NCBI GenBank assembly: GCA_033439255.1
Contig: CM065886.1
Location: 1,736,001 to 1,800,000, forward strand
DNA length: 64,000 nt
Direction of reading: 5' to 3'
Source: Hericium rajendrae
Lineage: Eukaryota; Basidiomycota; Agaricomycetes; Russulales; Hericiaceae
Shown here: positions 4,447-33,061 of the stretch, one piece after another
Layout of the letters: every line of letters starts with the position of its first letter
Numbering within the stretch: position 1 is the stretch's first letter
The notes under the pieces: model-generated
Seen by the model: only the letters and a program-made list of their open reading frames with translations
Database searches by the model: none
Told to the model about the DNA's origin: nothing
Program-made: the position numbers and the translations under genes

Positions 4447-5630
4447 GTGGGTGGCACGAAACATTTCTTTGATCCGTCGAATCGCTTCTCTGTACTATCC
4501 GACCCCTGTGAGCAATCGTATCCATCGTCTTTGCGCATGTCCGCTATCACACCCAACCGTCAGACACCGTCCATTACGCTCCAGGCCAAGATTATCACTG
4601 CCCCGATCAAGAAACAAATCGACGCTGAGGCACTTCTCGATAGTGGTGCAGAAGGCATCATTATGCACCCCGAGTTTGCCAAGAAACACCAGTTCCCCCT
4701 CAAGAAACTCCCTAAACCCTTTCCCGTTCGCAACGTGGACAACTCCGAAAACATCATGGGCTGGGTCCGCTATTCCGTCAACCAGAACATCCGCATTTAC
4801 GCCAAGGACTCGACGTCCTTCCATGAGGAGACAGCTGAGTTCTATCTCGTTGATATTGGCGACTATGACATTATCCTTGGGACCGATTGGTTACAGGAAC
4901 ACAACCCTGAAATTGATTGGGTCTCTCGTCGTGTTGACATGACTCGCTGCCCTCCCTCTTGCACCCTGAATAAGCCCCCGGTCAAAAACCTGTCCACTCG
5001 CTCAGAACGCCGCCAATCAGCCCCTCGTCCACCAGTCCTCAGTACCGCTGCTGTACTGCTCCCCCCACCTTGCCCCCTCCATTGCTCCCACTGCCCCCAC
5101 CATTTGTTCCTGCCCCACTTCCCAAATACGTGATCCCTGCTCGCCGAGTCCAAGGTGTCCGTCTTCGCCGCATCCACCTGTCCAAAGTCCCTGCACGTCT
5201 GTTTACCGAGGATGATGACCCGCGACCTAACGTCGATGATGACTGGGTTGAAGAGGGTCTTCGCCTAGCTGGTGTTCTCCCTGACTGGGACACACCACCC
5301 CCTCCAGATGACGACCCAGACTACCAACATACCATCCGTATCCGTCGCTCTTTCACCAATGCTCAGAAACTGGCTGAGCATGTGGCCGCCCATGTTGCGG
5401 AGAAGTCCTTTGCTGAGATGGTTCCCCCTCAGTACCAGGATTTCCAACCTGTCTTCGATGAGGAATCCTCCCATCGCCTTCCTGAACGTCGCCCTTGGGA
5501 TCACGCCATCGACCTGAAAGATGGTTTTGAACCCCGTTCATGCAAGGTCTATCCCATGGCTCCCACTGAGCAGGAGGACCTCGATTCGTTCCTTGATGAC
5601 CAGGTCAAAAAAGGCTACATCCGTCCTTCG
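4447..5630 (+). pseudogene. Gypsy Pol, N-terminal part: protease and start of reverse transcriptase
   Basis: The aspartic protease active site reads ALLDSGAEG near 4630, and DIILGTDWLQEHNPEIDW follows near 4870, typical of gypsy proteases. A proline-rich linker then changes frame in a C-rich tract near 5058-5090. The sequence continues with the conserved pre-RT segment ending KKGYIRPS at about 5630. The catalytic RT palm, including the YxDD motif, was not found anywhere in the window. The KDZ element begins where it should start. Confidence 0.85.
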
Positions 5631-5671
5631 AGCCAAACTGACACTTCGTCGCATTCTAGATTGGTGAGCTC

Positions 5672-7580
5672 ACGTTGGCCAACGTCCTGGTGTAGTCATA
5701 GTAGTATGGCCAGTCATAGTAGTATGGCCAGAATGACAATCTTAATTATCATACCGCGTTGCCCAGGAATGTTCGCCTATGCCCCTATACCTGACAGTTA
5801 GTTACCATGCAGTATTGTCTGGCCAAGTATACCATTTTTGCAATCGAATATGCCTGGCCAAGCACAAAATATGCCTCAGCCTACCGCGGCATATTGCGGC
5901 ATATCAGTATGCTTGGCCAATATCCAATATGCCGCAAGGCTGCATGACCTTATGATTGGCCAATGTGCATATCCTTTCTGCACCAACATGCCGCTATGTT
6001 TGACCAACATCCCATATAATTATACGCTACCATTCTGGCTTGATTGGCCAACCTCACATATCTTTAACTGCGGCATGCCTCTGCGGTTGGCCAACGTCCC
6101 GTATATTCATACGGTGGCATTCCGGCTTGGTTGGCCAACGTCGCGCTGAAATAACTCAACCATGCCGCCATGGTTGGCCAATGTCCTACTGTATTTGACT
6201 CAACCATTCTGGCTTGGCTGGCCAGCGTCTGATATTATATACCCCACCATTGTGCCTTGGTTGGCCAGCCTCCGACGTATTTTACCGCGGCATGCCGCCA
6301 TGGTTGGCCAAACACGTACATCCTGCCTGCATCATCATCCCGCTATGGTTGGCCAACATCCGAAGTACTATACCATACCATGTGACGTTGGTTGGCCAAC
6401 ACAAATATTGGTTCTTCTGTGTCATGCCCGCATGATTGGCCAATGTCAGACATGGTTTACCGCACCATGCCCCTACGGTTGGCCAACATATGAAATAGTG
6501 TACCGTACCATGCTGGTATGGTTGGCCAACGCGGACATCCTGTCTGTGTTGTCATGCTGCTATGGTTGGCCAACTCGCATATTCTCTCTTCAGGACCATG
6601 CCCGCATGGTTGGCCAACAGCCGAAGATACTATTATACCGTGTGACATTGGTTGGCCAACGCACGTATTATCTCTTCTGTACCGTGGCCGCATGGTTGGC
6701 CAATGTCTGACTCACTTTACCGCGGCATGCCCCTATGGTTGGCCAACATCTGACGGACCGTGCTATACCGTGCGACATTGGTTGGCCAACCCACATGTTC
6801 GTTCTCCTGTACCATGCCAGCATGGTTGGCCAATGTCTGACTCACTTTACCGCGGCATGCCCCTATGGTTGGCCAACATCTGACGGACCGTACTATACCG
6901 TCCGACATTGGTTGGCCAACCCACATGTTCGTTCTCCTGTACCATGCCAGCATGGTTGGCCAATGTCTGACTCACGTTACCGCGGCATGCCCCTATGGTT
7001 GGCCAACATCTGACGGACCGTACTATACCGTCCGACATTGGTTGGCCAACCCACATGTTCGTTCTCCTGTACCATGCCGGCATGGTTGGCCAATGTCTGA
7101 CTCACGTTACCGCGGCATGCCCCTATGGTTGGCCAACATCTGACGGACCGTACTATACCGTGCGACATTGGTTGGCCAACCCACATGTTCGTTCTCCTGT
7201 ACCATGCCAGCATGGTTGGCCAATGTCTGACTCACTTTACCGCGGCATGCCCCTATGGTTGGCCAACATCTGACGGACCGTACTATACCGTCCGACATTG
7301 GTTGGCCAACCCACATGTTCGTTCTCCTGTACCATGCCGGCATGGTTGGCCAATGTCTGACTCACGTTACCGCGGCATGCCCCTATGGTTGGCCAACATC
7401 TGACGGACCGTACTATACCGTGCGACATTGGTTGGCCAACCCACATGTTCGTTCTCCTGTACCATGCCAGCATGGTTGGCCAATGTCTGACTCACGTTAC
7501 CGCGGCATGCCCCTATGGTTGGCCAGCATCTGAAATAGTATACCGTACTATGCTGGTATGGTTGGCCAACACACATTATA
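5672..7580 (+). repeat. Phased TTGGCCAA palindrome array (left)
   Basis: About 40 copies of the palindrome TTGGCCAA (usually ATGGTTGGCCAA) recur every 43-44 bp. In 6670-7540 the spacings run 43, 43, 44, giving a near-exact 130-bp higher-order repeat present about seven times. The outermost copies near 5705-5860 are degenerate (TGGCCAG, TGGCCAAG). Such subterminal arrays are typical transposase-binding regions. A spacing close to four helical turns would put the sites on one DNA face; that function is inference. Confidence 0.9.
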
Positions 7581-7739
7581 GATTGCACATGCTCATTTCT
7601 TAGCATACTACATACAATGTCTATTTACCGCTATTTCACGCCACACTGCCATACCTACATTGGTTGGTCAGCCATGAACTCACCACTGCTCGTATGGATG
7701 CTCTACATCAACAGGGAGGTGATGCTGGTGGTGACCGGC

Positions 7740-8370
7740 TCCTCGTGTTGTACCGCAATACGAGCGATGCTACAACCTTATCCAGAAGACCGTACCCCAT
7801 GCCCGTAACATCCCCAAGCAGCCACGTCCCGTGATTCTCTGCGTACCTCTGGTCGTCATTCGTTCCATTGTATGCTCATATGGACTTGTATCGCAGACCG
7901 AGTGCATGCGTGCTAATGTACTATGCTTCCCAGGTATGCCGCGGCATACTTACAGCATATGCCGCGGTTGATCTCTGGAATGTACAGGAATACGAGCGAT
8001 GCTACAACCTTATCCAGAAGACCGTACCCCACGCCTGTAACATCCCCAAGCAGCCATGTCCCATGATTCTCTGCGTACCTCTGGTCGTCATTCGTTCCAT
8101 TGTATGCTCATATGGACTTGTATCGCAGACCGAGTGCATGCGTGCTAATGTACTATGCTTCCCAGGTATGCCGCGGCATACTTACAGCATATGCCGCGGT
8201 TGATCTCTGGAATGTACAGGAATACGAGCGATGCTACAACCTTATCCAGAAGACCGTACCCCACGCCCGTAACATCCCCAAGCAGCCATGTCCCATGATT
8301 CTCTGCGTACCTCTGGCCATCATTCTTTCCGTTGTAGGCTCATATGGACTTGTATCTTAATGCACCTCAG
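7740..8370 (+). repeat. 232-bp tandem repeats, inner left TIR
   Basis: Three successive copies of about 232 bp contain ATACGAGCGATGCTACAACC, a CCCAAGCAGCCA phrase and the palindrome TATGCCGCGGCATA. The inverted right arm has matching copies at about 25440-25990, spaced about 210 and 233 bp. Their role is unknown. Confidence 0.85.
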
Positions 8371-8618
8371 TATGTACTAGGGTACTATGCCGCCAGTGTA
8401 TGCCTGACCGTAATTCTACCATATGCCGCAGGCTAGTCCGGAATCATGCCGCGGCATAGGTGGGCAATATGCCGTGGCATGCCACCATGCTTCTGACGCC
8501 CGTCTGCCAGAACAATGCCCCGTGACTCCAAACACGTAAATGAAAGTCATGTGACGTTGTGGGACACAGGCGCCAGTGTGATTGCAATCGTGATACCGGA
8601 TCTGTTATCGACTCCAAC
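8371..8618. other. Intergenic, KDZ element
   Basis: No gene was seen. The stretch contains several copies of the TGCCGCGGCA-type palindrome (near 8445 and 8470). It is likely the promoter region of the small gene that follows. Confidence 0.4.
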
Positions 8619-9225
8619 ATGTCTCTTGACAATACATGGGCTTGTACCCGCCCAAATATCTCAGCCATCTCCGCAAGCGTGGAGCAGGCACTCTTGCAGA
8701 TTGCCTCCACCGATGTGGATCCCCAGATGACAGCAGCACAATGGGTATATCGAATATATCCTTGACTTATTCTGTTTGCTCACTACGACCAAGGTGGATT
8801 TATCCCGGGATATTGGGTTGCTCAAACTCCATCAGGCTGATGGGCAACCTGATCCATTCCGTATCCGTACTCGCATGTCGAAGAAATTTCGCCGGGCAGT
8901 TGATGCTCACACAGCCAATGAAAGAGGGATATTGGGATATGTTCCCGCACTTCTCACGCAGGTAGGCACCAGTCTTCCGTCCATTTAAAAACTCAACCTG
9001 AGTCATTTTTAGAGTGGCACATATGCCGAAGGACCGCCCACGCCACCCGCAGACATTCTTGCTGCGCGTGCGAAGGTCTTCGACGACATCGCCCAAGCAG
9101 AACATCTTCATAAATATGTAGCTGGTTCCATAAAGGACCAATTGGACCGATGGCAGCTGAAGCGGACATTGGCCAATGATGCTCTGCAGGACGTCACGAG
9201 GATGAAGAGGGAGAACCAGGAATAG
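8619..9225 (+). CDS. Small KDZ-borne protein, unknown function
   Basis: I do not recognise this family. Three exons splice cleanly in phase 0: 8619-8744, 8794-8961 and 9013-9225, giving about 168 residues. The last exon follows a TTTTTAG acceptor. The C-terminal half (IAQAEHLHKY onward) is strongly helical, rich in K, R, Q and E, and probably a coiled coil. It sits just inside the left inverted repeat and shares its direction with the next gene. The splice phases support a real gene; the start codon is the first in-frame ATG but is not otherwise proven. Confidence 0.6.
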
Positions 9226-9470
9226 CTGCATAGACTGGAAGATTTTGTCTCCTTCATGGGTCGACTCAGTAGAACCTGTCGCATCGTATTTCGCATGTTA
9301 TGCTATCCTTTGATGTTTTGCCTGAAGCCGTTGTTCCATGCCGCGGGAATATGACGTAGTCTGTGCGCTGCACGTGCTTGCAATCCCCCTTGGGCGGCAA
9401 TCGATACCAGTCGTTCGCCGCTCAACTACTCACCTTCACTCAATACTGTGCCAAGTATTGTGAGCTAACA

Positions 9471-10377
9471 ATGACCACCCCTAATGCTACGACTGCCTTT
9501 ACTTCCAGACCACCTTTTGGATCGCTTGGACAGGCCATACTGAACGAAATCGCATGGCGAATTCACGATGCAATGCAGACGATTTCCACTCCCCCCGGCA
9601 CATATGAGTACTGGTACGCATTCAATGCAGTACAAAATGAACTGGTACGTTGCATAGACCACATAATGCAACAGCATTTGAGCATGTGTTCAGAATGCCG
9701 CGGCTGTCATCATTGGATTCGCGGAGTTCGCCAAGACGCCGATTATCATTCCTACGTTGCTACGGGATACTGGGACCCACCTGGATATCCTTGGTCGTGC
9801 TCTATCCGAAGGTCATCATCCAGCGCTGCCACCTGCTCCCGCATTCCCGCGGGGTGACCCGATTATGCGATACATGCCACGGTGGTGGCTTCCCCGCTCC
9901 CAGTGGTGGCCAGACGATATAAGGGAGGAGCTCCGGACCACAACTAGGACGGCGGGTCAATCGCACAGACCTGCGCAGAGCGGAAGGTCAGCGGAACCTG
10001 TCTGGTATGCGTCACAGAACACTGCTGACAGACTGTAGGGGTAATGGAGGCCAAGGGCAGACGGCAGCCCAGCGTACACCATCGCCCCCTGATATTTTAG
10101 GAACTCTTGCCCTATCTGTACGTGCCCATGTGGAATCGGTATGTACATACCTCCTATGCCATTGGCTATCTTGCTGATGCCGCGGTAGGTGCGACGTGCA
10201 GACCGCATCTACTATGCATTGGATCAGGCTGTATCTGTGGCGGAGAATCTGTCCAATTACATCGATGCATGGTGCAAGGAGCGTTCCGTCATCCTCGACG
10301 ACTTGCAACATATGGAGGATTGGATGCAGGATGAAGGCGGGGCCTGGCAAACCTTGAATAGGTCTCTGCATGACTAA
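9471..10377 (+). CDS. KDZ-borne hypothetical protein, probably multi-exon
   Basis: Not recognised. The start at 9471 (MTTPNATTAF) follows a CT-rich stretch. The first exon is open and protein-like to about 9680. A second block at about 9735-10036 (PRGDPIMRYMPRWWLPRSQWW) lies in another frame, and a third at about 10190-10377 (DRIYYALDQAVSVAENLSNY) is helical and ends in a stop. A CTGATATTTTAG acceptor lies near 10100. I could not fix all exon joins, so these blocks may be one gene or two. Confidence 0.45.
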
Positions 10378-10479
10378 AGGCCAGTTCGAATGATCTCTGA
10401 TATGCCGCGGTATGTGATCACAGTGAGAATCCATCCACATTTGTGTGAAGCATAGTATGTCCAGCCAAGTACATGTACA

Positions 10480-13400
10480 TTAGTCTAGACCATATTTAGA
10501 ACGTTCATCATCCCCTAACACAGACTTGAACATTGTGTCTGCGCTTCCAGAAAACTCCTTCCACATCGCCTTCTGCCGTGCACCATATGCCGCATGGCCG
10601 CGCAACCCCTCTTCGCCGGCCTTCTCCACCCTGCTCCCCCAATCATCTGCACGCTTCTGAAATCCTCTCACAGTCCAATCCATTTCAAATGGAAGAACAA
10701 CCATCTCCTCATGCCAACGATGCATCCTTGCCGTGCACGAAGCCACTGAACTCGGTGGACTGAGAATAGTGTGAATTAATCATGTTGCGGCATACGTCTC
10801 TGATAAAGACTGAATGTCCGACTTACAGTCTGCAAGCCATTCGCCTTCAAGTGAATCACCAGAGACATCCATCGTCCAGAACCAAGGCAGAGTTGAATTG
10901 CGTAGACCCCTGACCGATGGATCCAGGACAGCAGTGCGGACCTTCAGATGCTCTGGAAGGAGAGATTGGAACCTCTCGAGCATGTCCTCCTTAGCACCCA
11001 GATCTTCCATAGCCTCTCTACATCTTGAATACACACGTGCCTGGTGTTGAACGGTGCTTTCGATAGAGGTCACACCCTCCCATGCCCGTGTCTTCTTGCG
11101 TTGACTATTGGCCTGCCGCACATCAGTCCTGAAAACATAGGCCTTGTATCCCAAGGCTAGTCGTAAGCTTTGCAATGCATCATTGGCCTGGCCTTCCCGC
11201 AATTCCAGTTCAGCTTCCACCAATGTCTTCATCTGAGGCACACGGAGAACCTCCTTATCAAGACGAGATGGTAGGCTGATAGCCACGCGTTCAATGGGGA
11301 TGTAACCGCCAGATCTACGGGGTACTGCAGTAGCGTGGGTATCATTGTCCTCGTCTTCTTCTCCAACGTGATCAAACTGATCTCCATCTCCAGCGGAGAG
11401 AGGGATGCCGTGATTAGCCGTATCGATGTCGTAGGGTAGAAACTGGCATGCAGCACGCTCAAAGGTCGTCACACGGGATTGCAGACGTCTTCGTTTGTCC
11501 TCGAGATCATTCTTTTGTGCCGAGGTAGGGCTCGACCCCACTTTGCGGACAAGCGATACAATAGACAGCCTGCGGTTTGAGATTTAGGTTGAGATCAAAT
11601 CAAATACGTCAGGTGAAACAACGAACTGTGTCTCTTGAATCCGGAGGCCCAGTGTTATCCATGCCGCAGCGCCAAGGCCCTGTCCACGGTCCAATTCTAG
11701 TTTGTTTAGCCTGACGAGGATATCGGCTCTTGTCGGCCCTTCCACAACATATAATATATTAGTACTGGCTCCAGGTTATGGACAGGATACCACAGTACCT
11801 TTCTTTACCGTAGTGTCATAGATTTTGACCATCACCATGGGATCATCTTCCCGTTTGCTTTGTGCCTCTTCCTCCTCGTTCGCCCAGTCATCCCGTTTAT
11901 CCCGTGAGACCGTGGAATTGATACTCTTGAATGCCGTGATTGCCTTTTCTAATTCTACCTTTCCAGCCCGATACCGCCGCGATAGGTAGTTCACTGTATA
12001 GTGGGTCAGCGGCATAAACGGGATATGGCGATTCAGATCAGTACCCATTCCAATGAGCTTCTTCCAGTTTGAATCATTCATATGGTCGTCTAGAACTTCC
12101 CGACGGTGGGATGTCGACATGCCACTGGTGCTTCTAGAAATCTCATTCAGTGGAGCCCAGAGCGTCTCGACAACTTCACCATCGAATTGCCGTGCACCGA
12201 TGATATAATTCGGTGAAAATGCTGGGATGCATTCATCCTTGTGCCCATGCACATGAAACAGTCCAATCGCAGCCTTCATCTCGACGATGCTATCAGGAAG
12301 AGATAGGAATTCACTGTTAGCCACGCGTTCTCGGAATTTCTTGCGCCACTGGCATATGATGTCATATATTTTCATGACGATTTCTATACCTTTGCTTCTA
12401 AAGTTAATGGCCTGACACGCGGAGTAGTCCATGTTCATTTGTCTGTTACACTGGTCAGCATGTTCATTCCACATGGCTGAAATCATAGACCAACCGCTCG
12501 CCCTTCTGAAAATCAACTGTAGAGTGCGGGTAGAAGCACCCATGGCAGCAAGCCGTTGCTCCAATTCCGGTATGTTCAACGTGATGGCGATCAGCATTGA
12601 CACGATTGACCGCCCGGTGCTCGTTGCAGGTGGATCGCTATATGCCGCGGGATACCTCAACGGTGTTCTGGTGATATGGTCAAATGATGCGCACCTCGCG
12701 TTGGTCATTAGCCGCCTTCAAATGCTTCTTGTACTCTGCTTGTCCAACCATGAATCCGGCCCCTTCGCTAAGCTGGACGTCGTTGGCCGGTCTGCGCATC
12801 TTGCTTCCTGTGGACTCAAAGTTGCCGTCCATCACAAACGTCCTGAGAAAAATCCAACTACATGCAGGACGGTAAGCCATAGGTCATGCACCATGTGAGG
12901 AGCGAGTTACCGTCTGGGGTCAGCTGTCTTCCAGTCATCTGGTAGATTGAATTCTGGCTGTGCGCAGGTAGGGCAGAACATCGCGCGGCATCCTGGTGTT
13001 TCTGAATCCTCTGGGTCGTGACCCATACCAAACCACTTCCTGAGTTTCATATCCCGCCATTGCCGCTCAACCCGCAACAACTCCCGGTATCTATCCTGGA
13101 TTACAGTCAGCATGGTGATGGCCCACGTCGAGACAGACACATACTGGTACACTGGACGGAAATGCACTATTCGTGAGCCTTCGCAACTTATGATAGAAAT
13201 GGTAAGCCGTCGTCTTGCATTCCAGGTTGTCCAGCCGAAAGTCATCCAGAACGCGGAAGGTAAATGCCGTCTCAGGTGAGTGGAATGTAGATGGGAACAT
13301 CTGCATACGGAAGAGTTGCAGGGGAGGGGATCTGCATTAGGACATTGACACCAGACAACCGGCATGCGGTGCACCCCACTCGAGTCCACAATACATAGAA

Positions 13401-14251
13401 TTGGATTCCCGTCGGCATCACGGGCCTTCTTCGGCAAGACGTCAGTCTGAAAGGACAGCAGGTCCTCATCATCAGCAGGCCATGGTGCAGTAGGATCCTC
13501 ATCGTCAATTGGTGGATCCTCCTCAGCGTCCTCCTCCGGATCCACACTTGATTCAACGTCCTCTCGACTGGCATAAGGGCAAGGATGTCCTGAATGGCCT
13601 ACATGAATCTTGACACCGGCGAAGCGAAGCCATGATGGAGAAAAGAATTCGCCAGTCCAGCGTTCGACGCGGTGGAATGGCAAGGCCGTATGACGTTTAG
13701 AGAAACAGGGAGTGCATTCGAACATCTGCCCTAGACAGTCCATACATCGCCAGACACCTTCTTGACTCTTGCAGGTAACGCACTGGGTATCAACTGGCGG
13801 GCACTCGGTATCCAACATGGCATGGATGTAGTCTGAACGTTTGGGTAGCCATTCGCGCAAGTAATCATGCTGTCCCTTGCTCGCGGCATCAGCACCGTGT
13901 CCTGCGGCATGCCGAGGTTATCCTACCCACCTTGTGATGTACATCTGCTAATGGGTCACGAATCCCGTCCTCCTCCTCTACAAAGTCGTTGTTCATGACT
14001 TCATAGTCGGCAGTACGTGGCCCTGGGAGAGCATTGAAGACAGCATCCCTGGATGGTCCACTTCCCTCCCTGTCAGGCGTAGGAGTGAGGTTAGAAGGGG
14101 TTTCGCTCAGCAGTCTACGTGATCCAGCCTTTTCAATTCCGACTTGGTTCCACCCGCGGGACGTCTTCTGCACAACCAGGGTGACATGGACATTGCCATG
14201 GAGGGGTGCAGTATATCGTACTTTATTCCTGCCCGGCTTGGTGCGGGCCAT
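10480..14251 (-). CDS. KDZ transposase with CxC2 zinc cluster
   Basis: This is the transposase of the element, a DDE-type recombinase acting on its inverted ends. Nine exons can be placed: 14251-13931, 13869-13145, 13095-12911, 12857-12695, 12637-12495, 12442-11799, 11738-11627, 11569-10827 and 10759-10480, about 1,105 residues, normal for the family. The CxC2-like cluster (CVTC, CMDC, CTPC, then HRVERW) lies near 13750. The KDZ core includes CNEHRAVNRVN, NMDYS, YDIICQW, FHVHGHKDEC, DGEVVETLWAPLN and LDDHMNDSNWKKL at 12600-12030, and the typical C-terminal helical part (ANDALQSLRLAL, TRAWEGV) follows. Two apparent one-base deletions (about 13318 in a C-run, about 10730) break the frame. They could be errors or real decay. 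Confidence 0.92.
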
Positions 14252-14415
14252 GCTGGGACTGATGGTGCATGGGCCTTGGTGTTAAGGCGCATATAATAAC
14301 GCCACAATGTTTGAACGATTAGGACCCTCAGTTTTACACTCATTACTAAGGAACAAATGGTGGCAAATGACATGCTTCCGAGAAGCCGTGGTATATTCTA
14401 GATGTCCATATGATC

Positions 14416-15880
14416 TCAAGATAACGCCAATCTCCGGAGATCCAGCACCGATTGCTCCAGATCATCTTCGGAATCGCCAACAGCCGCCTCAGCGTGCATG
14501 GTCTCATACCTGCTGACCCGCATCCATCCGGCTGCCTCCTGCCCAATGCGATCATGCACGGCATCTCTCATGAACCATGCGTAACAAATGCGCTCCCCAA
14601 CAAAGTCTGAGACTGAATGTTCCAGGGCTTTGCCAGACACTGCTATGACAGTGCGGGGTTTGTAATTCAGTTCTAGGCCAGTTCCTGGAAGCGCAAACGT
14701 TGCGCTCTGATAGGGACCGATGGTGCAGAGAATGTCATACCATGAGGCACGACTCTGCCCATCGCGATGAGCCGGTGTTTGCCGGTTAGATATGACCGCA
14801 ACTCCGTTGAACACAGATGGCCATTGCTGAAGGGCTGGAGCAAGTCGTTCAATGCCCTTGAGCTCCTTCATGACGGATGCCGCGGCATCGTAGAGCTCTG
14901 GATGAACAACGCTTAGAATAGCGCTGAATAGCGCAGCGGACTCTGCAATGTCAGCCACCCAGTTCGCGCCATCAATGTTGCGTTTTGCCGGGTTTATCAG
15001 TGGCGAAGTAAACAAGTCATCGTTGGGCCCCTATATGAACCAGTGCATGAGCTGGAGACATAGATATGAATTGGGAAATATGATACACACAGTGTGCGCC
15101 TGCTGAAACCATGCAGGAGACACAGACACCGTCCCTGGGGTGAATCGGCTACATGCCTCTGCAGGATGAAAGAGCTGGGGCGATTCCCTCCATGTGCCAT
15201 CCTTGGTGCTTCCAGACTTTTTCCGAGATGGATTGGACCTTCGAACATGTGCGTTCAAATGTTCTGTTGCCCTCGCCATCTTGATCTGTGAACGAAATTA
15301 GTGGTTTTGATTGTATGTACCTGCAAAAGACAATACCTCGCGCTCCTTGGATATAAGACCAGGCAAGTACCAGAAGAAAATCCGTCCATGCCGATCAATG
15401 CCTATGCAGGGCTTGGTATACTCGGGATGTCCTGATACCCGCGGATATCGTTGCAGAAATACTGGAGAGTCCTGCTCTCGTTTACGTTCTGCATAGCGCT
15501 CCATGTCCCAGTTGATCACAACTAATGGGAATTAAGCAATGGGGGAGAATGCCGCATACACATAATTACATACCACGATCCAAAAAGGCGGTGACAAGCA
15601 TATCCGCGGCGAAGTCGAGCTCAGATAAAACAGTAATCGGTATTGTCATAGCAGGACGGTCAATATCACCAGGCACAGCCCGGTTCAATGCCGCGCATTG
15701 ACGTTGTCTGAGCACATTGCGAAATCGGTGGGAGAGATACTCTGCCATGGCTGAGGCATAAGGACAAGCAGATGAAGATGCCGCACGGGATGTAGGTGCG
15801 GAAGACATGATGACTCTGTGGTATAGTTGTCTCTGGAATACCGCAGACTGAAATACTTGCAGGGACAATGAGGCAGCCAT
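14416..15880 (-). CDS. TET/JBP-family 2-oxoglutarate/Fe(II) dioxygenase
   Basis: This is a predicted nuclear oxidase of 5-methylcytosine in DNA. The family uses Fe(II) and 2-oxoglutarate to make hydroxymethyl- and further oxidised cytosines. Four exons (15880-15574, 15521-15337, 15285-15091, 15030-14416) total 1,302 nt and give an uninterrupted 433-residue protein. The catalytic domain is in the last exon. The HxD iron motif is in TPAHRDGQSRASWYDIL, the distal histidine in GKALEHSVSDFVGER, and the 2-oxoglutarate-binding arginine in the ERICYAWFMRD region. The N-terminal exons are not recognised. The gene lies 165 bp upstream of the transposase on the same strand and is divergent from the next plus-strand gene. 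The chosen start is the first in-frame ATG. Confidence 0.9.
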
Positions 15881-16662: not shown

Positions 16663-19600
16663 ATGGCTAGGGCGAAAAAGATAACCAAAGCCAACAAGCG
16701 CACGTCCAAAGCCGCGGATGAGGCAACCGCAAGCACCTCAGCAGCATTGGAAGTCCAGCTCACCCTCCAGCCCCGCCACGTTGCATATCTCTTCACACGA
16801 GTGGCCGAGTATCGTTTGGCGGACTCTGCCCGAAAGACGGCCATTGCAAACGAATGTGTGGACCACCTGGAGGTCAAATTTGCCCGCGAGTTTGCTCCCT
16901 GGAAGAAGTGGAGGCGTCGGGTCAAGGAGGTCCGTATCTGTTTTAGTTGAAATCTCCCTTTCTGACTTTCAGCACAGCGCGTCGTGATCTGGTTCCGAAA
17001 TAATGGCCGTAAGACCGCAAGTACCCAGGTCAAGAAGTACGTGAAGAAGGCAGACTGGAGGAACGTGGCCGCACATGAGCAGAAGGATTCGTTCCATGCA
17101 TACTTCGAGCGGGTGAACGGGGTCAAAGTCGGGTCCCCGAAGTGGGTTGGATTGCGACAGAACACCCTAACGGCGTGGTGTGCGAAGTTCAGTGACGCGG
17201 ATAAGGCGAAGTATGAGGAGATGGCGAATGAGTGGAATCAGATGGGCCCCCCGCCTGATGTGCAACGCAAGTACGTGTCAAACCTCTCTTCTAACAACCG
17301 CGGGGGCTAATCCTGAATAGAAATGCATCCAAATATGCAGTCGCCCACATGCGCGGCTTTGCCAAAGAAATGTATCAGCAGTGCGGCATGCAAATGATCA
17401 TTTTCACATCTTTTAAATGCCCTGATGGCCGTCTGGCCCATGCCATGTAAGTCATTTGCTGCTTTAACATTTGACTTGAGTTAACCCCGAGTAGGCAAGA
17501 CTATACAGAAGACCTGTCTGGGACAAAGGGGTTCAGCGAGGCAAATCCGAACTGGGCAGACACCGGCATATTTACACAATGGACGGAGTGGTCAACAAAG
17601 GCATCAGGTGAGTACTTCAATATATCTGGCTGGCAAGCGCTGATGCCATGCTTCAGATCCCCTGCTTTGCGAAGCTCCAGATGCTCCAAGCGAAAGCCTA
17701 GACCTCCCGGAACTGGATTATGACGATGAAGGCTGGCCGATCTTGCCATCGCTAGAGGTATTCGATAAGCTGGAGAGGCAAGAGCGGAAGGCCTTGATCA
17801 CTCAGTGGATGACTGCACACTTCCGTAAGCCAGAGTATCATCTCGTGGAGCAGAAGCTGACATGTAGATCAGATATTGCAATAGGTGAAGTGAAGGGCGC
17901 GGTGCCATGGGGATTGGTTTTTACCGAGGACAGCGACTACTTCTCCCTGGATTGCTTCCCGCCAGGATACCAATTCTGGATTCACCCGTCAAAGTGGAAC
18001 CAATATTGCATTGAAGATGTATACAGGCACTGGCACGACCGCATAGACGAAGGCTTGATTCCCTTCAAGTGGGATTATTTTCCGGAGGTCGACGGTGATG
18101 ACACTGTTCAATGCTTTGCCAAAGCTCCTACTCCAATGCAGGGACCTCCTGCTAAAGGCAGGAAAGCCGCGTTGAAGGCCCGCCATGCCATGTCCCCCTC
18201 CACAGGGTCCGGGAATGCCGCGGAGCTCTCCAATACCTCCGCGCAAAGCCGTACACCGACGGCGACCTTGGGAAAAGGCAAGGAACGGGCGCACGTTGAT
18301 TACGACAGCCAGGATGACCAGACCCCATCGTCACCAGATGTACAAGACACCCCGCCACCTGTAATCAGGCAGAAAGGCAAGGACAGGCCCCCAACAGCGT
18401 CCCGGAATGCCGCTGGGTTCTCCAATACCTCCGCGCAAAGCCGTACACCGACGGCGACCTTGGGAAAAGGCAAGGAACGGGCGCACGTTGATTACGACAG
18501 CCAGGATGACCAGACCCCATCGTCACCAGATGTACAAGACACCCCGCCACCTGCAATCAGGCGGAATGGCAAGGACAGGCCCCCAAGGGATTACGACACC
18601 GATGAGGACCTTACCTCGTCGTCACTAGGTGGTGAAGACATCGTCCACCTTTCGGACACTGATGCGTCCAAGGCAGGGGATGTTCTATCTGATGCGGACT
18701 ACAGCGGCATTACTGCGGCAGCAGAGGAGGACTCCGAAGCAGAAGTAGAGGAGGCAAACCCGTCTGATATAGACTTGGAGAGTGACGCACAGCATCCAAA
18801 GGCGGCAACGCAGACCCTGGCCAAACAGCATGAGGCGCAGGTGGCTCAGGAGAATGCCACGCAGGCAAAAGCGAAAACCACTAAGGCGGCCAAGGCGATG
18901 GAGGCCAAGGCAATTGCAGCCAAGGCGAACGCCATGAAGGCCAAAGCCGCGGCGGCAAAGACCATCCGGGAGAAGGCTCAGGCGAAGGCTCAGGCGAAGG
19001 CTCAGGCGAAGGCCGCGGCGAAGGCGGAGGCTCAGGCGGAGGCGAGGGCGAAGGAGGCGAGGGAGGCGAAGGCGAGGGAGGCGAAGGCGAGGGAGGCGAA
19101 GGCGAGGGAGGCGGAGGCGAGGGAGGCGGAGGCGAGGGAGGCGGAGGCGAGGGAGGCAAAGGCGAGGGAGGCAAAGGCGAGGGAGGCAAAGGCGAGGGAG
19201 GCAAAGGCGAGGGAGGCAAAGACGAAAGCGAAGGAGGTGAAGAATAAAGCCTATCAGGAACGACTGACCATAACGAAGGCTAATCTGGTGAAGCTTGGGA
19301 AGGGGAAGAAGGCAAAGGAAACCAAAGGACAGCAGAAGGAGTCTGGAATTCCATCGACTGATGAGGAGGATGAGGTGTTGATCATGGTGGACGAAGTGGC
19401 AGACCAGAGCCTACAGGAGCTGGAGAGACCTCCTGGGTGGACTGGGAGCTCAGGCGGCCCTGCCGGAGGGTCTCTCGCTGCTGCAGGTGGTGCTCCGCAA
19501 CGCCGCGGTAATCGTCCAGCCACTTTGGAATGCCCTGCAGACACACGACGCCACACCCGACTCCGCATGCAATACCTGGCCTCGTTATCCAATGAAAAGG

Positions 19601-20537
19601 AGTATTGCAAGCTTCTGGAGCTGATTGCGCAGATGCAAGGAGTGAGTGATGCTATTATGACATCTCAAAGTTTCAAACACTAACTGGACTTAGGGAACGG
19701 GTGCTGCGCCACTAATTCCACTTCCAGCAAGCTGGAGAACGCACTGGAAAGAGGGAGAGCCAGGAAATGTGGCTTCCTGCTGAAGTTCATAGGCAGGAGG
19801 GGCTAGAGGACCTCACCACATGGATTGGTACGAAGCCCTGGCTTTCTGCACCAACGCAGAACGGGTCGAGGAGTGTCCGATCTAGGACAAGCATGGAAAC
19901 CTTTGCTTTGGCCATGGGTAGTGCTATACATGATATGCATGAAGGCCAATTCGCAGAGGACGCGGACGAGGAGAGCTCAGGACCTGGCTATTTGAACGGA
20001 TCACCTCTTGCTTTCGCTTACATTGCGAGTCTGATAATCCCTGCAATTACGAAAGCCTGCAAGGCGTTAGATGATCCGGAAGGCACTACCGAAACTGTAG
20101 GCAACATTAATTATCTCTTTATTTATGCGGCAATGATGCTAAACTATCCGGGCAGCAGGCTCCATCCTCTGGACAGAACGCCAATGTCCCGAGGGCCAGC
20201 AATGCCGCCAATGATCGTGGAGGCCCCCATCTGCTAGGGAAACGTCTTCGATCTCCTGATAGTCCCCCAAAGGCTGGGCCGAGCTCGATGCATCCCCCAA
20301 TCAAGCCGCCTGCAAGGCGGCAAAGAAAGCCTGAAGTGCAGGATGAGAACATTGTTGAAGGGTCTAGGAGAAAGCGGCCGACGGCTAAGGCCCTTGAGTA
20401 AGTTATGCTGCTGTCAGCACCCAGGCGTCTTGCTGATTCACAATGTAGACAACCCCCACGTTCTGGCCGCAATCCGAAGCTGACAGTGGAGGTTGCGATC
20501 CCTGCAGCACGTCCATCCGGTGGCAGGAAAGCTTGAG
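16663..20537 (+). CDS. KDZ-borne protein with homeodomain-like segment and long charged coil
   Basis: Exons are 16663-16929, 16978-17270, 17321-17446, 17495-17607, 17657-19641, 19728 to about 20400, and about 20457-20537; the first five join in consistent phase. Near residue 90 the segment [11 protein letters not shown] resembles helix 3 of a homeodomain (WFxNxR), so DNA binding is plausible. The middle has two copies of a 192-bp unit (18212 and 18404) with Ser/Pro-rich acidic sequence. It is followed by an Ala/Lys/Glu/Arg repeat ([15 protein letters not shown]) at 18820-19240, certainly helical. The C terminus is basic ([16 protein letters not shown]). One base seems to be missing in a G-run near 20150. 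The specific function is unknown. Confidence 0.7.
18212..18595 (+). repeat. Two-copy 192-bp in-frame tandem repeat
   Basis: The coding sequence from about 18212 to 18403 is repeated at 18404-18595 with few differences. It adds 64 residues of disordered acidic sequence ([14 protein letters not shown]) per copy. Length variation between copies of the element would be expected. Confidence 0.85.
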
Positions 20538-21131
20538 AGAGCCCATTGGACTCTCGCCGGCATGCGGCATCCTTCAACAGATATGCCGCGGCATTGTATA
20601 CCGAACGCTAGGGGCTTCAACATGCCTCAGGCGGCCGTGGGCTGACGCGAACAACATTTACAGTGGGCTGTAGGATATAGAGAGGAGGGTGATGGCTCTG
20701 GAAGTCCCGAAGCGGGGTGCAGGAGCATAGGCTACGTCAATAGATATGCGCGGCATGATAAATCAGTGGTGTGCTGTCGGGCGATGTCCTTAGGTTGTCA
20801 GTAGCATGCCGCGGAGATTCAAAGCAGTGTGTGGAACATGGAGAAAGGCGGGGTCAATACTCCATTTGATGTAGACTCTGGTGCATCATATCATAGATAC
20901 TCATATCTGGTCGCAGTTCAGGATGTTGTATACACAGATATTGCCATGCGAGACTTGAAACGGGTTATATAACTGTCTTAAGCCCAAGAATCATTCATCT
21001 CAGGTCACACATTTTATCTTAGATAGGAGAGATTGATCATTCATTATCTATTTAAGTACAAGGGCGAAGAGCATGCAGGACTCATGAAATAATAGTGAAA
21101 ATGCCGCCGGATGGCGCGGGCATGGATATAC
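20538..21131. other. Intergenic between convergent KDZ genes
   Basis: No gene was seen. The stretch contains CCGCGG-type palindromes near 20583 and 20810 and an AT-rich part around 20880-21060. It is presumably the 3' ends of the two converging transcripts. Confidence 0.4.
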
Positions 21132-23604
21132 CTACTCGGCAGGTTTTGAACCTGTGCTAGGCTGGCTGGATGAGGCCCCAGCATTGCCGCGGTCTGCATC
21201 AGTAGCTCCACCCCACTGAACCGCCGCAGCCGTGCTAAACCGCCCACCAAATAGTCCCGCGGGAACCGGAACTTGTTGCGGGGCCACGTTGACCATGCCA
21301 CGCAGCTCTTCGAACCGGGAGGCCATCCTGGAGGACATGTCGGAGATGTCGGTGTGCAGGTTGCTGGATAGTGTGGTGAGGCCCCTATCAATGTTTTGAA
21401 GACGGTCCTCATGCTCCTTGAGTCGCTGTTCCACTGACTCCTGATGGCGGCCTTGTGTGGTGTCAATGCTGGACACTCGCTCGGAGAGGCGTTGCACGTC
21501 CGCGGAGAGATGGGCCATGCCTTGAATGACACCTTCGTGCGTGCCCAATTGCAGGCGGATACGCTTGATATCCGCGGCAAGATCCTCGACCAGCTGTTGG
21601 GAGTGTGGGTCGTATTCCCGCCGGTCTTGCGGCATTGGATCGTCAATGCAAGCAATAGGGGGATGGGGAGACAGATTCGGTCGGCGAGGAGGGGTGACAT
21701 CCAGGGGAATTTCAGACTGGTGATCTGGATCAGCGTGTGCAGGACCGTCAGTGTTGGTCCTGGGCGCGCACTGGAGCCTTGCCCTTGTCCTTACGCCGAG
21801 ATGGTCCAGGAGCACGGTCATCCAAGTTGACCTGCATTGGCGGCGTTGGCATACGCGGCTCATCCTCCATGTCGACGTCAAAGTCAGCGGGTGCCTGAGT
21901 AACCGCGGCCTGCTGTGCTTCCGCCTTGAAGCCGAGGCTGCCTGAGCTGCGGCAGCTGTCGCCGAGGCTGCGTCAGACCAGTAGCCCCATGATGAGACAT
22001 TACCCTGCACCTCAGGTTCCCAGTCGACAGAGCGGTCCAGGGGCCATTTGGGCATCGGCCCAGCTGCATGCCGCCAGAGCACATCATAGTAGTCCTCTGG
22101 GTCCCAGTTACGCCTATTCCCGCTGCCCGCGCCTTGGGCCCGGTGGGAGCATTTGTGCTTGAGGCCCTTGCAGGCGAGGCAGGCGTTGCATGGGCCCCTG
22201 GGGAAGCAAGGCTTCTGGTCCGTTACGCAGCGCTCGCAGGAATCCAGCTAAGATATTTGAAACCTTCATCAGTATTGCTTATGATAAAGTAACAATGAAA
22301 TTTGCAAGCGTACCGCTACCAGTTTGGCCTGCTTGATGTATCGAAGCTCGTCAGCTGTGAATACCCGCTGGAGCAAAGGTATATGTGAGCATTGGAAGAA
22401 TATGGTAACAAATTACAGACTTACCTGTGGAGGAAGCTGGTCCTCATTTTGCTGCTGCTCGCTCTCCACACCCTGATCTCCCTGCTGGTTCTCCTCCTGC
22501 TCTCTGGCGTCCTCAATGGCCTGCGACTGCTGGACTTCTTGGCTAGTCGCCGCTGCATTCTTGCGGCCACGTCCGCCCTTTTGGGGCTTCGCAGCGGTCT
22601 TGCCTGCTGCTGGCTTCTTCGAGGCGGAAGTGGTCTTGCTGGCCCCAGCCTTCGTTGGTGCAGCCTTCTTGGATGCGGGCGCGTTCTTCGTCTTCTGCGC
22701 CTTTGTCTTTGGTTGGGCGGCATCGGGTAAGGCATTGTCATCAGAGGCCATGGCTTCCGCACGGCGCTTGCTTCGGCGGGGCTCTGGTGGGGTCGGCGCG
22801 GCAGGGACATGCTCTGCAGGCCTTGAGGGCGTCTTAGAAGCCTCTACCCGCGCGCGGTTGCGATCAATTTGCTCTTGGACCTCGGCGGCATCATCTGCAG
22901 GGATTTGGATGCGAACGCCATTCTTCGTGGGCTGGAGCACAACCTTAGGCCGAGGTCGTGGGGGTTGGCGACGTTCAGGATCAGGCTGGGGAGGTTTCGC
23001 AGTAGGTACGGCGGCGGGGCGGGTGGTCTGAGTGGAGGAACGACCAGCAGGATGGTCGGATGACGATGCAATGGAAACTGGGGATTCATTACGATCTAAC
23101 AATACATCAATGGATTGAATATGATGCAGGACCGAATACCGACGCACCTAGCTCTAACCACCACCCACCTTCGAGCACACTGCCGCCCTGGGAATCGTCG
23201 AGATCATGGTAGTTTGTTGGCCACAACTCAGAGTGGTAGTGCCCCATCATTTCCTCCTTGAGACGGGAATCCGCAGAGGAGATGGAAGCGAAGTCCACTG
23301 GCCGGGACATGCGGCGGGCATCTACCATCTCAAGCATCCAGCTGATGACGAGCGGCGGGATTATCTTGCGTTCGCCGGCTTGTTGCACGGCCAGAAATGC
23401 CTGTGCTAGAGATTTCTGCAGAGACGTAACGTGGTCAGCAGCATATGAAGTTAAGAACTGAAAACGTACTTGTTCCGCAGTGAAACGTCGCTCCCACTCA
23501 TCCCTGCTGATAATGTCCCGGTGCTTTAGAGAACCAAGGGCAAGGAGGACACGAAGAGCACAGCGCATGACATCCTTTTCAAGTGGGGTGTAGGGGGATG
23601 ACAT
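21132..23604 (-). CDS. KDZ-borne cysteine-cluster and coiled-coil protein
   Basis: Five exons (23604-23470, 23415-23148, 23095-22425, 22367-22314, 22247-21132) join in consistent phase and sum to 2,244 nt, an intact 747-residue protein. After a helical N-terminal domain there is a basic linker (KKAAPTKAGASK). The fifth exon opens with a cluster C-x2-C-x6-C-x5-C-x2-C-x2-C-x6-C (CERC, KPC, CNAC, CLAC, HKC), resembling fungal zinc-cluster DNA-binding domains. The last 150 residues (LEDLAADIKRIRLQLG to RFEELRGMVN) are a predicted coiled coil. A stretch at about 21760-21940 reads more naturally in another frame, so compensating indels are possible. A role in binding DNA for the transposon is inferred, not shown. 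Confidence 0.72.
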
Positions 23605-23747
23605 GGTGGTGAGTGCAAAGTGAGAGTGGGACAGGATGTCGACTTAGCCGCATCCGCAGGGAAGTGAGAGCCAGATCACGTGACCGTCGCGCCGCGCGGT
23701 GAACTCGCGTAGATTGGCGCTGGTGTCACTGTTGACTCTCTACTACA

Positions 23748-24894
23748 ATGAACGCTGACGACCTGGATTCGTTCATGGTAGGACTCGCTGAGGAGTCTGA
23801 ACATGATGCGGATATGTATTCTGACAACCCGCAGAACCATATGCCCGCAGGCCAGGCAGCACGCGGGGACCAGGTGAGTGCTATTGTTAGAGCATTGGAT
23901 TTCAACGCTTATAGCGGGCAGGGAGATCCTGATGACATTCAGGCGATGGAGGACATGTTCTGCGGTGTCCTTGATCCGCCGACTATGAATGTGGCTCACG
24001 AGCGCACAGGGTCCGATGTCCAGGAAGTTGAAAAGGTGAGTAGGGTGCGAGCCCTGGGAAATTGGTTGCTGATATTTCTCAGGGAGCAATGGACGAGCTA
24101 CGGGAGATGGAGGGCATGTTTATGGACATATGTGGTAGTCCTACTCTGGGTGAGGAGGTATGTTGTCAACCCATTCTACCTGAATTTAAACTGATTTACC
24201 GAAGTCTGCATCTGCGGATGGGGTGGGATATGCCTCGCGAGGTCCAGGGGACATATCGGCTGCGGTTGCGCTTACCAAAATGACGATCAGCGGTGTCATT
24301 CGTGATGATGGCATAAGCCCGGATGTGCAGTGCGAGGCGGGTCGTAATGCCATCGCGACACCTGCGAAGGCTGGAGTAGGCGGTCCCGCGGGATCGGTAT
24401 GTACTATGGCTATGACCGCGGCCAACATACTAAGTCCTAAATTAATCCAGGTATCCGGTAAGGGAAAGGGAAAGGAGAGAATGGTGGAGGGAGGTGATGG
24501 ACCGGTAATCATAGCTACTGAACAGGCTGAGGTGCGGACATTTTGTGCTGATGTGTGATGAGATGTTAATGATGCCTCTCTTCTGGCCAACAGGATAGTA
24601 GCAGTCCGCCACCATTGGTCGAGGTGCGTTTTAACTTGAGATGAGTGACTGTCCCTATAGCTGATGGTCAAAATATCACAGGACTTCCCGTTTCACCGAT
24701 ATCTCAGCACGTCCCGTCGCCTCCATCCGGGATCTGTCGGTATGATGGTATCTCAGCAGGTCATGGCAGCGGAAGCAGCGCGGTTCGAGACGGAATTAAA
24801 CCTCTTCCGAACGTTAGCGAAAGGCCATGAGAGAATGAAGAGTTACCTAGAGGATGCACGGGATAGCTACCGAATGGCAGTTGAAAAGTACTAG
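23748..24894 (+). CDS. KDZ-borne small acidic/helical protein
   Basis: Not recognised. The start is MNADDLDSFMVGLAEE. Exon ends that keep phase are 23748-24035, 24083-24157 and from 24205, with further short exons (VSGKGKGKERMVEGG near 24460) up to the stop at 24892-24894. The N terminus is acidic. The C terminus (ETELNLFRTLAKGHERM, SYLEDARDSYRMAVEKY) is helical like that of the small gene at the other end of the element. It faces inward from the right inverted repeat and its promoter abuts the divergent cysteine-cluster gene. Confidence 0.58.
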
Positions 24895-25389
24895 GTGGCT
24901 ATCCGTATCTTAGTATTCTTGTAGGGTAGATATACTTTATATCAGAGATTGAGGTTCATATACCAGCAAAATGCCGCGTGAATGATAACAACATTGGCGG
25001 CATTCTATAATGATTGTACGACATGGGGATGGATACGCTATACAGAAGTCTCCGCGGCATAGACGGAAACTGTATTCCTTCAATTAGTACATGGACAGCC
25101 TCCTACAATGTGTTCCAAATTACATGCAAGCCAGACAGAGACCGTACGAATGCCGCGGCAGCTGAGGCGGCATCTGTGGGAATTGTCGAAACATATTATG
25201 GGCACTTCAAGTCGTTGAGAGCATAGAATCAAGACAGATTAGACGATATTGAAAGTGCAAGGACGCTGCAATTTCTGAAATCAAAAACAAATGCAACACA
25301 TATATCAAAAGGTAGTAAATGAGGCCGGGCTCCTGAATGTTCGTCAAACTCCGAACTGCCACTCATTGCATCTGTATGAGATTGGTCCA
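24895..25389. other. Intergenic, KDZ element, next to right TIR
   Basis: No gene was recognised. It contains TGCCGCGGCA-type motifs near 25050 and 25150 and short AT-rich parts. Confidence 0.4.
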
Positions 25390-27723
25390 CATTATGCCGC
25401 GGCATATATTAGCCATGCAGTACATTCGTACGCACACACGTGGTCTGCGATACAAGTCCATAGACGACCAGAGATACGCAGAGAATCTCTGGACGTGGCT
25501 GCTTGGGGATGTTACAGGAATGGGGTACGGTCTTCTGGATAAGGTTCTAGCATCACTTGTATCCTTGTACATTCTGGAGCTAGGCCGCGGCATATTCTGA
25601 GATTATGCCGCGGCATACATGGGCGGCATAGTACATTAGTACGCACGCACGTGGTCTGCGATACAAGTCCACAGACGACCAGAGATATGCAGAGAATCTC
25701 CGGACATGGCTGTTTGGGGATGTTACGGGCGTGGGGTACGGTCTTCTGGATAAGGTTGTAGCATCGCTCGTATTCCTGTACATTCCAGAGATCAACCGCG
25801 GCATACGCTGTAAGTATGCCGCGGCATACCTGGGAAGCATAGTACATTAGCACGCATGCACTCGGTCTGCGATACAAGTCCATATGAGCATACAATGGAA
25901 CGAATGACGACCAGAGGTACGCAGAGAATCACGGGACGTGGCTGCTTGGGGATGTTACGGGCATGGGGTACGGTCTTCTGGATAAGGTTGTAGCATCGCT
26001 CGTATTGCAGTACAACACGAGGAGCCGGTCACCACCAGCATCACCTCCCTGTTGATGTAGAGCATCCATACGAGCAGTGGTGAGTTCATGGCTGACCAAC
26101 CAATGTAGGTATGGCAGTGTGGCGTGAAATAGCGGTAAATAGACATTGTATGTAGTATGCTAAGAAATGAGCATGTGCAATCTATAATGTGTGTTGGCCA
26201 ACCATACCAGCATAGTACGGTATACTATTTCAGATGTTGGCCAACCATAGGGGCATGCCGCGGTAACGTGAGTCAGACATTGGCCAACCATGCCGGCATG
26301 GTACAGGAGAACGAACATGTGGGTTGGCCAACCAATGTCAGACGGTATAGTACGGTCCGTCAGATGTTGGCCAACCATAGGGGCATGCCGCGGTAAAGTG
26401 AGTCAGACATTGGCCAACCATGCTGGCATGGTACAGGAGAACAAACATGTGGGTTGGCCAACCAATGTCGCACGGTATAGTACGGTCCGTCAGATGTTGG
26501 CCAACCATAGGGGCATGCCGCGGTAACGTGAGTCAGACATTGGCCAACCATGCTGGCATGGTACAGGAGAACGAACATGTGGGTTGGCCAACCAATGTCG
26601 CACGGTATAGCACGGTCCGTCAGATGTTGGCCAACCATAGGGGCATGCCGCGGTAAAGTGAGTCAGACATTGGCCAACCATGCGGCCACGGTACAGAAGA
26701 GATAATACGTGCGTTGGCCAACCAATGTCACACGGTATAATAGTATCTTCGGCTGTTGGCCAACCATGCGGGCATGGTCCTGAAGAGAGAATATGCGAGT
26801 TGGCCAACCATAGCAGCATGACAACACAGACAGGATGTCCGCGTTGGCCAACCATACCAGCATGGTACGGTACACTATTTCATATGTTGGCCAACCGTAG
26901 GGGCATGGTGCGGTAAACCATGTCTGACATTGGCCAATCATGCGGGCATGACACAGAAGAACCAATATTTGTGTTGGCCAACCAACGTCACATGGTATGG
27001 TATAGTACTTCGGATGTTGGCCAACCATAGCGGGATGATGATGCAGGCAGGATGTACGTGTTTGGCCAACCATGGCGGCATGCCGCGGTAAAATACGTCG
27101 GAGGCTGGCCAACCAAGGTGCAATGGTGGGGTATATAATATCAGACGCTGGCCAGCCAAGCCAGAATGGTTGAGTCAAATACAGTAGGACATTGGCCAAC
27201 CATGGCGGCATGGTTGAGTTATTTCAGCGCGACGTTGGCCAACCAAGCCGGAATGCCACCGTATGAATATACGGGACGTTGGCCAACCGCAGAGGCATGC
27301 CGCAGTTAAAGATATGTGAGGTTGGCCAATCAAGCCAGAATGGTAGCGTATAATTATATGGGATGTTGGTCAACCATAGCGGCATGTTGGTGCAGAAAGG
27401 ATATGCACATTGGCCAATCATAAGGTCATGCAGCCTTGCGGCATATTGGATATTGGCCAAGCATACTGATATGCCGCAATATGCCGCGGTAGGCTGAGGC
27501 ATATTTTGTGCTTGGCCAGGCATATTCGATTGCAGAAATGGTATACTTGGCCAGACAATACTGCATGGTAACTAACTGTCAGGTATAGGGGCATAAGCGA
27601 ACATTCCCGGGCAATGCGGTATGATAATCAAGATTGTCATTCTGGCCATACTACTATGACTACACTAGGACGTTGGCCAACGTGAGCTCACCAATCTAGA
27701 ATGCGACGGTGTCAGTTTGGCTC
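25390..27723 (-). repeat. Right terminal inverted repeat of the KDZ element
   Basis: This is the inverted counterpart of the left arm. It starts inside with 232-bp-type units (copies near 25470, 25680 and 25913), continues with the inverted TTGGCCAA array (26185-27685) and ends GGCTC at 27723. It is about 400 bp shorter than the left arm because it has fewer 130-bp units. Confidence 0.88.
26185..27685 (-). repeat. Phased TTGGCCAA palindrome array (right)
   Basis: About 34 copies of TTGGCCAA lie at 43-44 bp spacing in mirror orientation to the left array. About three 130-bp higher-order units lie at 26230-26660, with more diverged copies outward to the end of the element. Confidence 0.9.
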
Positions 27724-27815
27724 AACATGGTCTTACGGAAAATCAGTACTGAATCATGTGGGCCTGCCCCCCGTAACGTCAAGGACGTCCAGTCCTTTGT
27801 TGGCTTTGGCAACTT
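27724..27815 (+). pseudogene. Gypsy Pol fragment between two insertions
   Basis: This short piece reads PRNVKDVQSFVGFGNF in frame, the connection segment after the RT domain in gypsy elements. Its next residues (YRRFIQDFSK) follow at 33062. It proves that the KDZ and Helentron-like elements both lie in one gypsy copy. Confidence 0.88.
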
Positions 27816-32990: not shown

Positions 32991-33061
32991 GCATAGTCAT
33001 CGTTTGCATGTCGTTTTCACTATGAAAAGGCGGTATAGAGTAAACGATTCTAAGGAATCGT

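Follow-up and report, generated by a model that had tools for sequence, protein, structure and literature searches.

TET genes carried by transposons have been on record since 2014, and how such a gene could favour its own element is the question raised by a 64,000-nucleotide stretch of the Hericium rajendrae genome (bases 1736001-1800000 of contig C9, hereafter the window), where a TET/JBP dioxygenase gene lies inside a KDZ transposon. Large KDZ DNA transposons form a young family in this genome, of which the element is one copy. Our best reading is that it is an element of a known kind in which two candidate protein-address systems have now come to light: TTGGCCAA (motif 1), repeated in its inverted arms, and a word centred on CCGCGG (motif 2), spread over arms and core. 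We consider it rather probable that a young KDZ family with TET cargo and two element-specific candidate protein-address motifs is the overall explanation of this locus. Together with a conserved candidate DNA-binding gene, the two motifs make the question directly testable.

The genome (46.8 Mb, 19 contigs) was searched with the arms and the interior as separate queries. Arm matches are present at many other places; at an arm identity of at least 82%, with two pieces on C17 taken as one locus, the family comprises nine loci, seven of which have kept the interior. All seven large copies contain the TET gene, an HMG-like gene and a gene for a protein with a cysteine cluster; in those on C4 and at C18:310k the interior, TET gene included, is interrupted by inserts. 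The two other loci (C18:64.7k and C17) are partial. An earlier sequence-only reading of this DNA would have been refuted had TET been absent from all other copies, and this is not the case. Members insert as a whole, bounded by outer termini of 36 or 37 bp and by 7-bp target site duplications (TSDs), and the inserted unit contains the transposase, the TET/JBP gene, the HMG-like gene and the Zn2Cys6-like gene, as we call the one with the cysteine cluster. The copy on C4 (C4:366-427k) is stretched over 61 kb by several large insertions and has a further KDZ match inside (C4:374333).

The ends of the element are not those proposed initially. Positions 5630 and 27723 had been taken as the ends, but GAGCCAAACTGACAC is an internal repeat; in other copies the true termini are found farther out, by 36 bp at type B ends and by 37 bp at type A ends. 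The outer piece is 37 bp long in type A (5'-CACATGATTCAGTACT) and 36 bp in type B (5'-GAGCCCATTCAGTACT), and the flanks beyond are unrelated among copies. On the right, the window copy has a complete type A terminus (27724..27760, minus strand, reading 5'-CACATGATTCAGTACT... inward), identical to the 37 bp found in other copies with unrelated flanks; the true right end is therefore 27760, only 37 bp from the one proposed. On the left, Ty3/gypsy sequence runs up to 5629 and directly abuts GAGCC, so that a gypsy reverse transcriptase is joined to the inner repeat GAGCCAAACTGACAC at 5629..5630. In three empty gypsy copies (L041-L043) the two flanks are separated by 567-569 bp; a deletion has thus removed this stretch together with the left outer terminus and the TSD. 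A GAGC microhomology at this junction was considered and dropped, as the empty gypsy copies gave it no support. What remains is a copy of 22,131 bp (5630..27760) that has its true right end and, owing to the deletion, a truncated left end.

At 10 loci both termini are readable. The 7-bp TSD is perfect at seven of them (GGCCCCA at C9:2055k, ATTCATT on C10, GTTAGCT on C11, TCACACC on C1, CTGGTCG on C14, CTAGATA at C2:128k and AGTACTT at C2:780k), one (C2:164k) matches at six of seven positions, and at C4 and C18:310k, where both termini are equally readable, there is none. The unit reads 5'-GAGCCC..CATGTG-3', i.e. GA..TG. The transposase lies on the side of the type B end in C10, C11, C1 and the C2:128k relative, and on the side of the type A end in C9:2055k, C4 and both C18 loci. 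These swaps mean that the interior has been inverted relative to the termini, most simply, we infer, by recombination between the arms. The flank GCCTTCC at C18:64.7k (L015) is the reverse complement of GGAAGGC at C18:307.8k (L059), as though an inversion of ~243 kb had separated the halves of a single insertion.

The transposase gene (10480..14251, minus strand, 8 introns; all splice models are our own predictions) is frameshifted in the window by private one-base indels, while 1105 codons are open in the C11 and C10 copies. Pfam recognized KDZ (PF18758, E 9.6e-46, 156.6 bits, cut-off 26.6) and CxC2 (PF18803, E 3.3e-25, 88.8 bits, cut-off 27) in the spliced C11 protein. The element thus has the RNase-H-like domain with a CxC cluster of KDZ transposons, beside the termini with TSDs of its other copies. 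The TET/JBP gene (14416..15880, minus strand, 3 introns) lies 164 bp upstream on the same strand. Its frame is open in the window, with two possible starts giving 433 residues or, from position 15808, 409, and it contains the HRD and ERICYAWFMR motifs; on transposase, complete dioxygenase gene and their arrangement the sequence-only reading was correct. The protein matches Tet_JBP (PF12851, E 1.4e-20, 73.6 bits, cut-off 34.9) and CcTet in the PDB (E 2e-26), and it has kept the HxD motif and distal H, which serve to hold the iron, and the R which binds 2-oxoglutarate. Among five copies read, C11 has both frames open and C9:2055k neither; in C10 the transposase frame is open and that of TET broken, and in the window copy and C1 the reverse holds. 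One-base indels may in either gene be assembly errors. With its left terminus gone and its transposase frame broken, the window copy can probably not move alone, its open TET frame notwithstanding.

Two accessory genes are well supported, and both recur in other families. One (16663..20536, plus strand) encodes an HMG-like protein, modelled at 1160 residues, with low-complexity repeats and the word WFRNN at 16990. The other (21132..23604, minus strand) encodes the cysteine cluster and a coiled-coil-like C-terminal part in a model of 747 residues. Both C2 relatives have the cysteine gene, and in one of them the HMG-like gene was seen as well. Zn2Cys6 proteins follow the pattern C-x2-C-x6-C-x5..12-C-x2-C-x6..8-C, and six cysteines with this spacing are found in all eight aligned sequences, which come from four groups, with a first loop of x8 in family 2, a second TET-KDZ family. 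The sequence-only reading had counted seven cysteines; the protein exists, and six of its cysteines are common to nine of 10 related sequences. Beyond the alignment, L038 has the six followed shortly by a stop codon, and L051 has one replaced. Pfam Zn_clus gave weak matches in three of eight members (best E 0.084) and none in the window's own sequence. No Pfam match was obtained with the accessory proteins of the window (the HMG-like one queried as its first 452 residues), nor any protein-database match at E<=0.001 with the HMG-like and cysteine proteins, in a database that perhaps covers few fungal proteins. The predicted structure of the cysteine exon was too poor for a structure search. That of the WFRNN exon weakly resembles an HMG box, with no Foldseek match at E<=0.001. 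Of the two proteins said to look DNA-binding, both are thus present, and the homeodomain attributed to the WFRNN protein finds no support, with neither a Pfam match nor a homeodomain among the structure-search matches listed. The HMG alignment left out L038 (stop codons) and L054 and L058 (near-identical to rows used). KDZ genes, their linkage to TET and a divergent HMG protein were reportedly covered by Iyer in 2014.

Inverted arms of 2.3-2.8 kb with 97-98% identity frame the element, and the large arrays noticed initially were confirmed with TRF. The left arm (5630..8444, plus strand) contains a 130-bp array at 6336-7533 and a 232-bp array from 7749, the right arm (25391..27723, minus strand) a 130-bp array and a 211-bp array at 25391-25882. 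Motif 1 is a palindrome repeated 36 times in the left arm (5675..7569, plus strand; 29 of 35 gaps are 43-44 bp) and 28 times in the right arm (26194..27680, minus strand; 22 of 27 gaps), so that 51 of 62 within-arm gaps correspond to about four helical turns. Compared with these 64 sites, the other 58.7 kb of the window have three, one in the core and two in the 41.9 kb outside the element. Genome-wide, 562 pairs of TTGGCCAA are spaced 41-45 bp from start to start, at least 401 of them in known arms, versus none for the reversed control. The word is also better kept than other 8-mers: in a 6.3-kb relative on C14 it is exact at 13 of 19 alignable sites, versus 159 of 875 for the others. It is absent from one 9.9-kb stretch of family 2. 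We read motif 1 as a candidate cis site for transposition of the window family. In En/Spm, subterminal TNPA sites are bound by a protein of the element; the window element similarly has short repeated sites near both ends, though TTGGCCAA is only a candidate binding site and the transposase families are unrelated. The idea that the oxidase marks the ends for transposition finds no support, the word repeated there containing no CpG.

The C14 relative (C14:446611-452892) and C2:780.8-786.9k are 6-kb elements with the same termini and with TSDs. A search of the C14 element for the cargo genes found none, and none of the KDZ matches listed lies in it. Both are probable non-autonomous relatives moved in trans.

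Motif 2 emerged as the top-ranked 7-mer of the core, tandem repeats inside the HMG-like gene being excluded from the ranking. The word ATGCCGC/GCGGCAT, part of a CCGCGG palindrome and of the longer T-x-CCGCGGCAT, occurs 83 times between 5886 and 27487 (25 in the left arm, 37 in the core and 21 in the right arm), or at 73 sites, 35 of them in the core, when overlaps are merged. For the core, 3.5 would be expected from dinucleotides. Outside the element there is one in the 41.9 kb of the window, and the flanks of other copies have two in 21.9 kb. Within the core, the 3156 bp between genes contain 13 words, the 1239 bp of introns five, the 10345 bp of exons 17 and the 2059 bp of two weak gene models two, i.e. 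4.1 per kb between genes, 4.0 in introns and 1.6 in exons. The extended form is preferred in the core, in the C2 relative and in one 9.9-kb stretch of family 2, the strongest 8-mer of family 2 being the variant TCCCGCGG. Genome-wide, TNCCGCGGCAT occurs 290+281 times (571, both strands) versus 29+33 (62) for the control; the both-strand counts of T-x-CCGCGGCAT take full palindromes twice, and the control pattern is non-palindromic. Among 63 places listed on C1 (5.3 Mb), 35 are in the element copy, 11 in the stretch C1:3-37k, which contains a family 2 copy, and 17 elsewhere, or 26, 11 and 16 of 53 if palindromes are counted once. Over 7.5 kb aligned between core and C2 relative, five of 15 core sites are in place and the relative has three of its own, with densities of 2.2 and 1.3 per kb. 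Individual sites are therefore gained and lost, while each element remains well supplied with them. Since known sites of Zn2Cys6 proteins consist of CGG/CCG triplets and CCGCGG is a pair of such triplets, the Zn2Cys6-like protein is a candidate reader of motif 2.

The association of these genes is wider than one family. At 34 of 38 Tet_JBP loci over the cut-off a same-strand KDZ match follows downstream at no more than 7 kb, a count that used 39 KDZ matches hand-picked near TET loci from those listed among the 172 present genome-wide. For each accessory gene one match per locus was taken; the 16 matches scored as a cysteine gene within 50 kb include that of C1:174385, which belongs to a neighbouring copy and was not counted. 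In family 2 (nine TET loci, KDZ 2.4 kb away) an HMG-like match of ~35% identity is found within 25 kb at eight loci, and a cysteine gene as well at four (C4:317-327k, C2:2559-2569k, C3:2492-2518k and C18:397-422k), in the order KDZ-TET-HMG-Cys and with the same relative strands as in the window. Family 3 (14 TET loci, KDZ 3.2-3.3 kb away) gave no match to either the HMG-like or the cysteine gene. The two best-scoring Tet_JBP loci, C1:1705501 and C12:2182408, have a cysteine gene 9 and 27 kb away and no nearby KDZ among the matches listed.

How might the TET protein then serve the element? Of 58 private C>T changes between copies, 49 are at CpG, where 21.6% would be expected (p 3e-24), the remaining private substitutions being six T>C and 13 transversions; only singleton columns were counted (five others in region A were left out, and region B comprised three copies). 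CpG observed/expected is 0.80-0.84 in the element and 0.86 in its gypsy host. From this pattern the element copies look methylated at CpG and slowly decaying. The copy C10:1173-1195k stands out, with 35 of its 39 private C>T at CpG versus one to six each in the others, and is perhaps an older copy or one under heavier methylation. A shielding of motif CpGs against deamination was tried and rejected (6/49 vs 78/922), as was a link in cis between a broken TET gene and CpG decay, on which the copies C10 and C9:2055k disagree. The proposal that the oxidase counters cytosine methylation accords with the CpG decay and with a published inference (PMC12730594), though this decay also shows that methylation of at least some copies was not prevented by TET.

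In the mechanism we propose, the transposase or a partner protein would bind the TTGGCCAA arrays, with neighbours about four helical turns apart, and so pair the ends. The TET protein would oxidise 5-methylcytosine on element copies and let them escape CpG methylation, and the Zn2Cys6-like protein would bind CCGCGG, mark the element as self and perhaps bring TET. The strong form, in which this protein directs the element's own TET to CCGCGG, confining oxidation to the element and leaving the remaining genome silenced, we regard as rather unlikely. If true, it would be a fungal, enzyme-based counterpart of the anti-silencing by plant VANC proteins, in at least two TET-KDZ families.

A diffuse action of TET on all methylated repeats, as put forward for Agaricomycetes (Kojima 2025), both motifs serving transposition and promoter control only, has somewhat less than an even chance. 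In its favour, Kojima 2025 (PMC12730594) discusses oxidised methylcytosine on retrotransposons too, PMC8889193 treats retrotransposons and DNA transposons alike, and 64 of the 65 sites of TTGGCCAA within the element lie in the arms; the spread of the CCGCGG motif over the whole core, however, is more than promoters need. It is also possible, with a little less credit, that the binder of CCGCGG is the transposase or some host factor (a regulator, a silencer or a replication factor) and that the Zn2Cys6-like protein is otherwise employed. In favour of this, the C14 element, in which no cargo gene was found, is dense in motif 2 (30 words in 6.3 kb); against it, the window family, the C2 relatives and family 2 each combine the motif or its variant with the cysteine gene. 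That TET merely travels with the element as a neutral passenger is improbable. Its frameshifts in two of five copies read speak for this, although one-base indels could also be assembly errors; against it, the iron and 2-oxoglutarate residues are kept and the same-strand linkage to KDZ described above extends to several families.

A KDZ family with TET cargo and two candidate address motifs, the reading we prefer, can be set against known systems. The TET/JBP-KDZ linkage in basidiomycetes, which the sequence-only reading called known, is indeed published (PMC12730594). That paper describes TET+ Kyakuja elements with a 7-bp TSD and, in two Laccaria families, CA..TG termini and no terminal inverted repeats (TIRs); it proposes that TET lets elements escape silencing, and its discussion leans to non-targeted action. 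Our family probably belongs to the Kyakuja group, sharing with the TET+ Kyakuja of Agaricomycetes a KDZ gene with TET/JBP nearby, the 7-bp TSD, one TG terminus and a CcTet-like oxygenase. It differs from the two Laccaria families in its arrayed inverted arms of 2.3-2.8 kb and in the GA..TG unit, so that neither the CA..TG ends nor the lack of TIRs is found here. The HMG-like and Zn2Cys6-like genes, common to another TET-KDZ family, go beyond the Kyakuja description; the main text of Kojima 2025 does not contain 'subterminal', 'accessory' or 'HMG'.

The KDZ1-KDZ3 elements of Cryptococcus neoformans (PMC12810828) also combine a KDZ transposase with inverted ends (KDZ1 ~11 kb, KDZ3 ~10 kb), but their TIRs are 139-241 bp, they have CxC1 rather than CxC2, the TSD is 8 bp in KDZ1 and 4-8 bp in other insertions, and TET cargo is not named in the accessible part of that report. 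TIR motifs of KDZ elements are characterised in the supplement of PMC8290104, according to its accessible text; listings of the open-licence literature yielded no report of the TTGGCCAA or CCGCGG motifs, nor any paper linking KDZ elements to a binuclear cluster. The nearest parallel to motif 2 is VANDAL21 of Arabidopsis (PMC5735166), in which a short motif, partly in tandem arrays, is dense in introns and other non-coding DNA; the window element likewise has motif 2 densely concentrated within it and enriched in non-coding DNA, and encodes candidate DNA-binding proteins. For VANC21, which is not a TET, binding and loss of methylation were shown experimentally (PMC5735166).

The count of 'at least five' accessory genes finds no support: besides the HMG-like and Zn2Cys6-like genes there are two weak models of possible small genes (23748..24890 and 9465..10380, both plus strand), based on open reading frame and splice pattern only. 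To the right of the KDZ element a second insertion may adjoin it, at 27.8-33.0 kb of the window, and the host gypsy presumably resumes near 33044. Elsewhere in the window CpG observed/expected is 0.64-1.01 in GC-richer and 0.21-0.39 in AT-rich parts. The stretches at 36-41, 45-58 and 61-64 kb are CpG-poor, with arrays and many TCAGA/TCTGA words (64+97 in 45-58 kb vs about 66 expected), and contain open reading frames suggestive of a Helitron, with a Pif1-type helicase motif near 50043, and, near 46436, of a Plavaka-like transposase.

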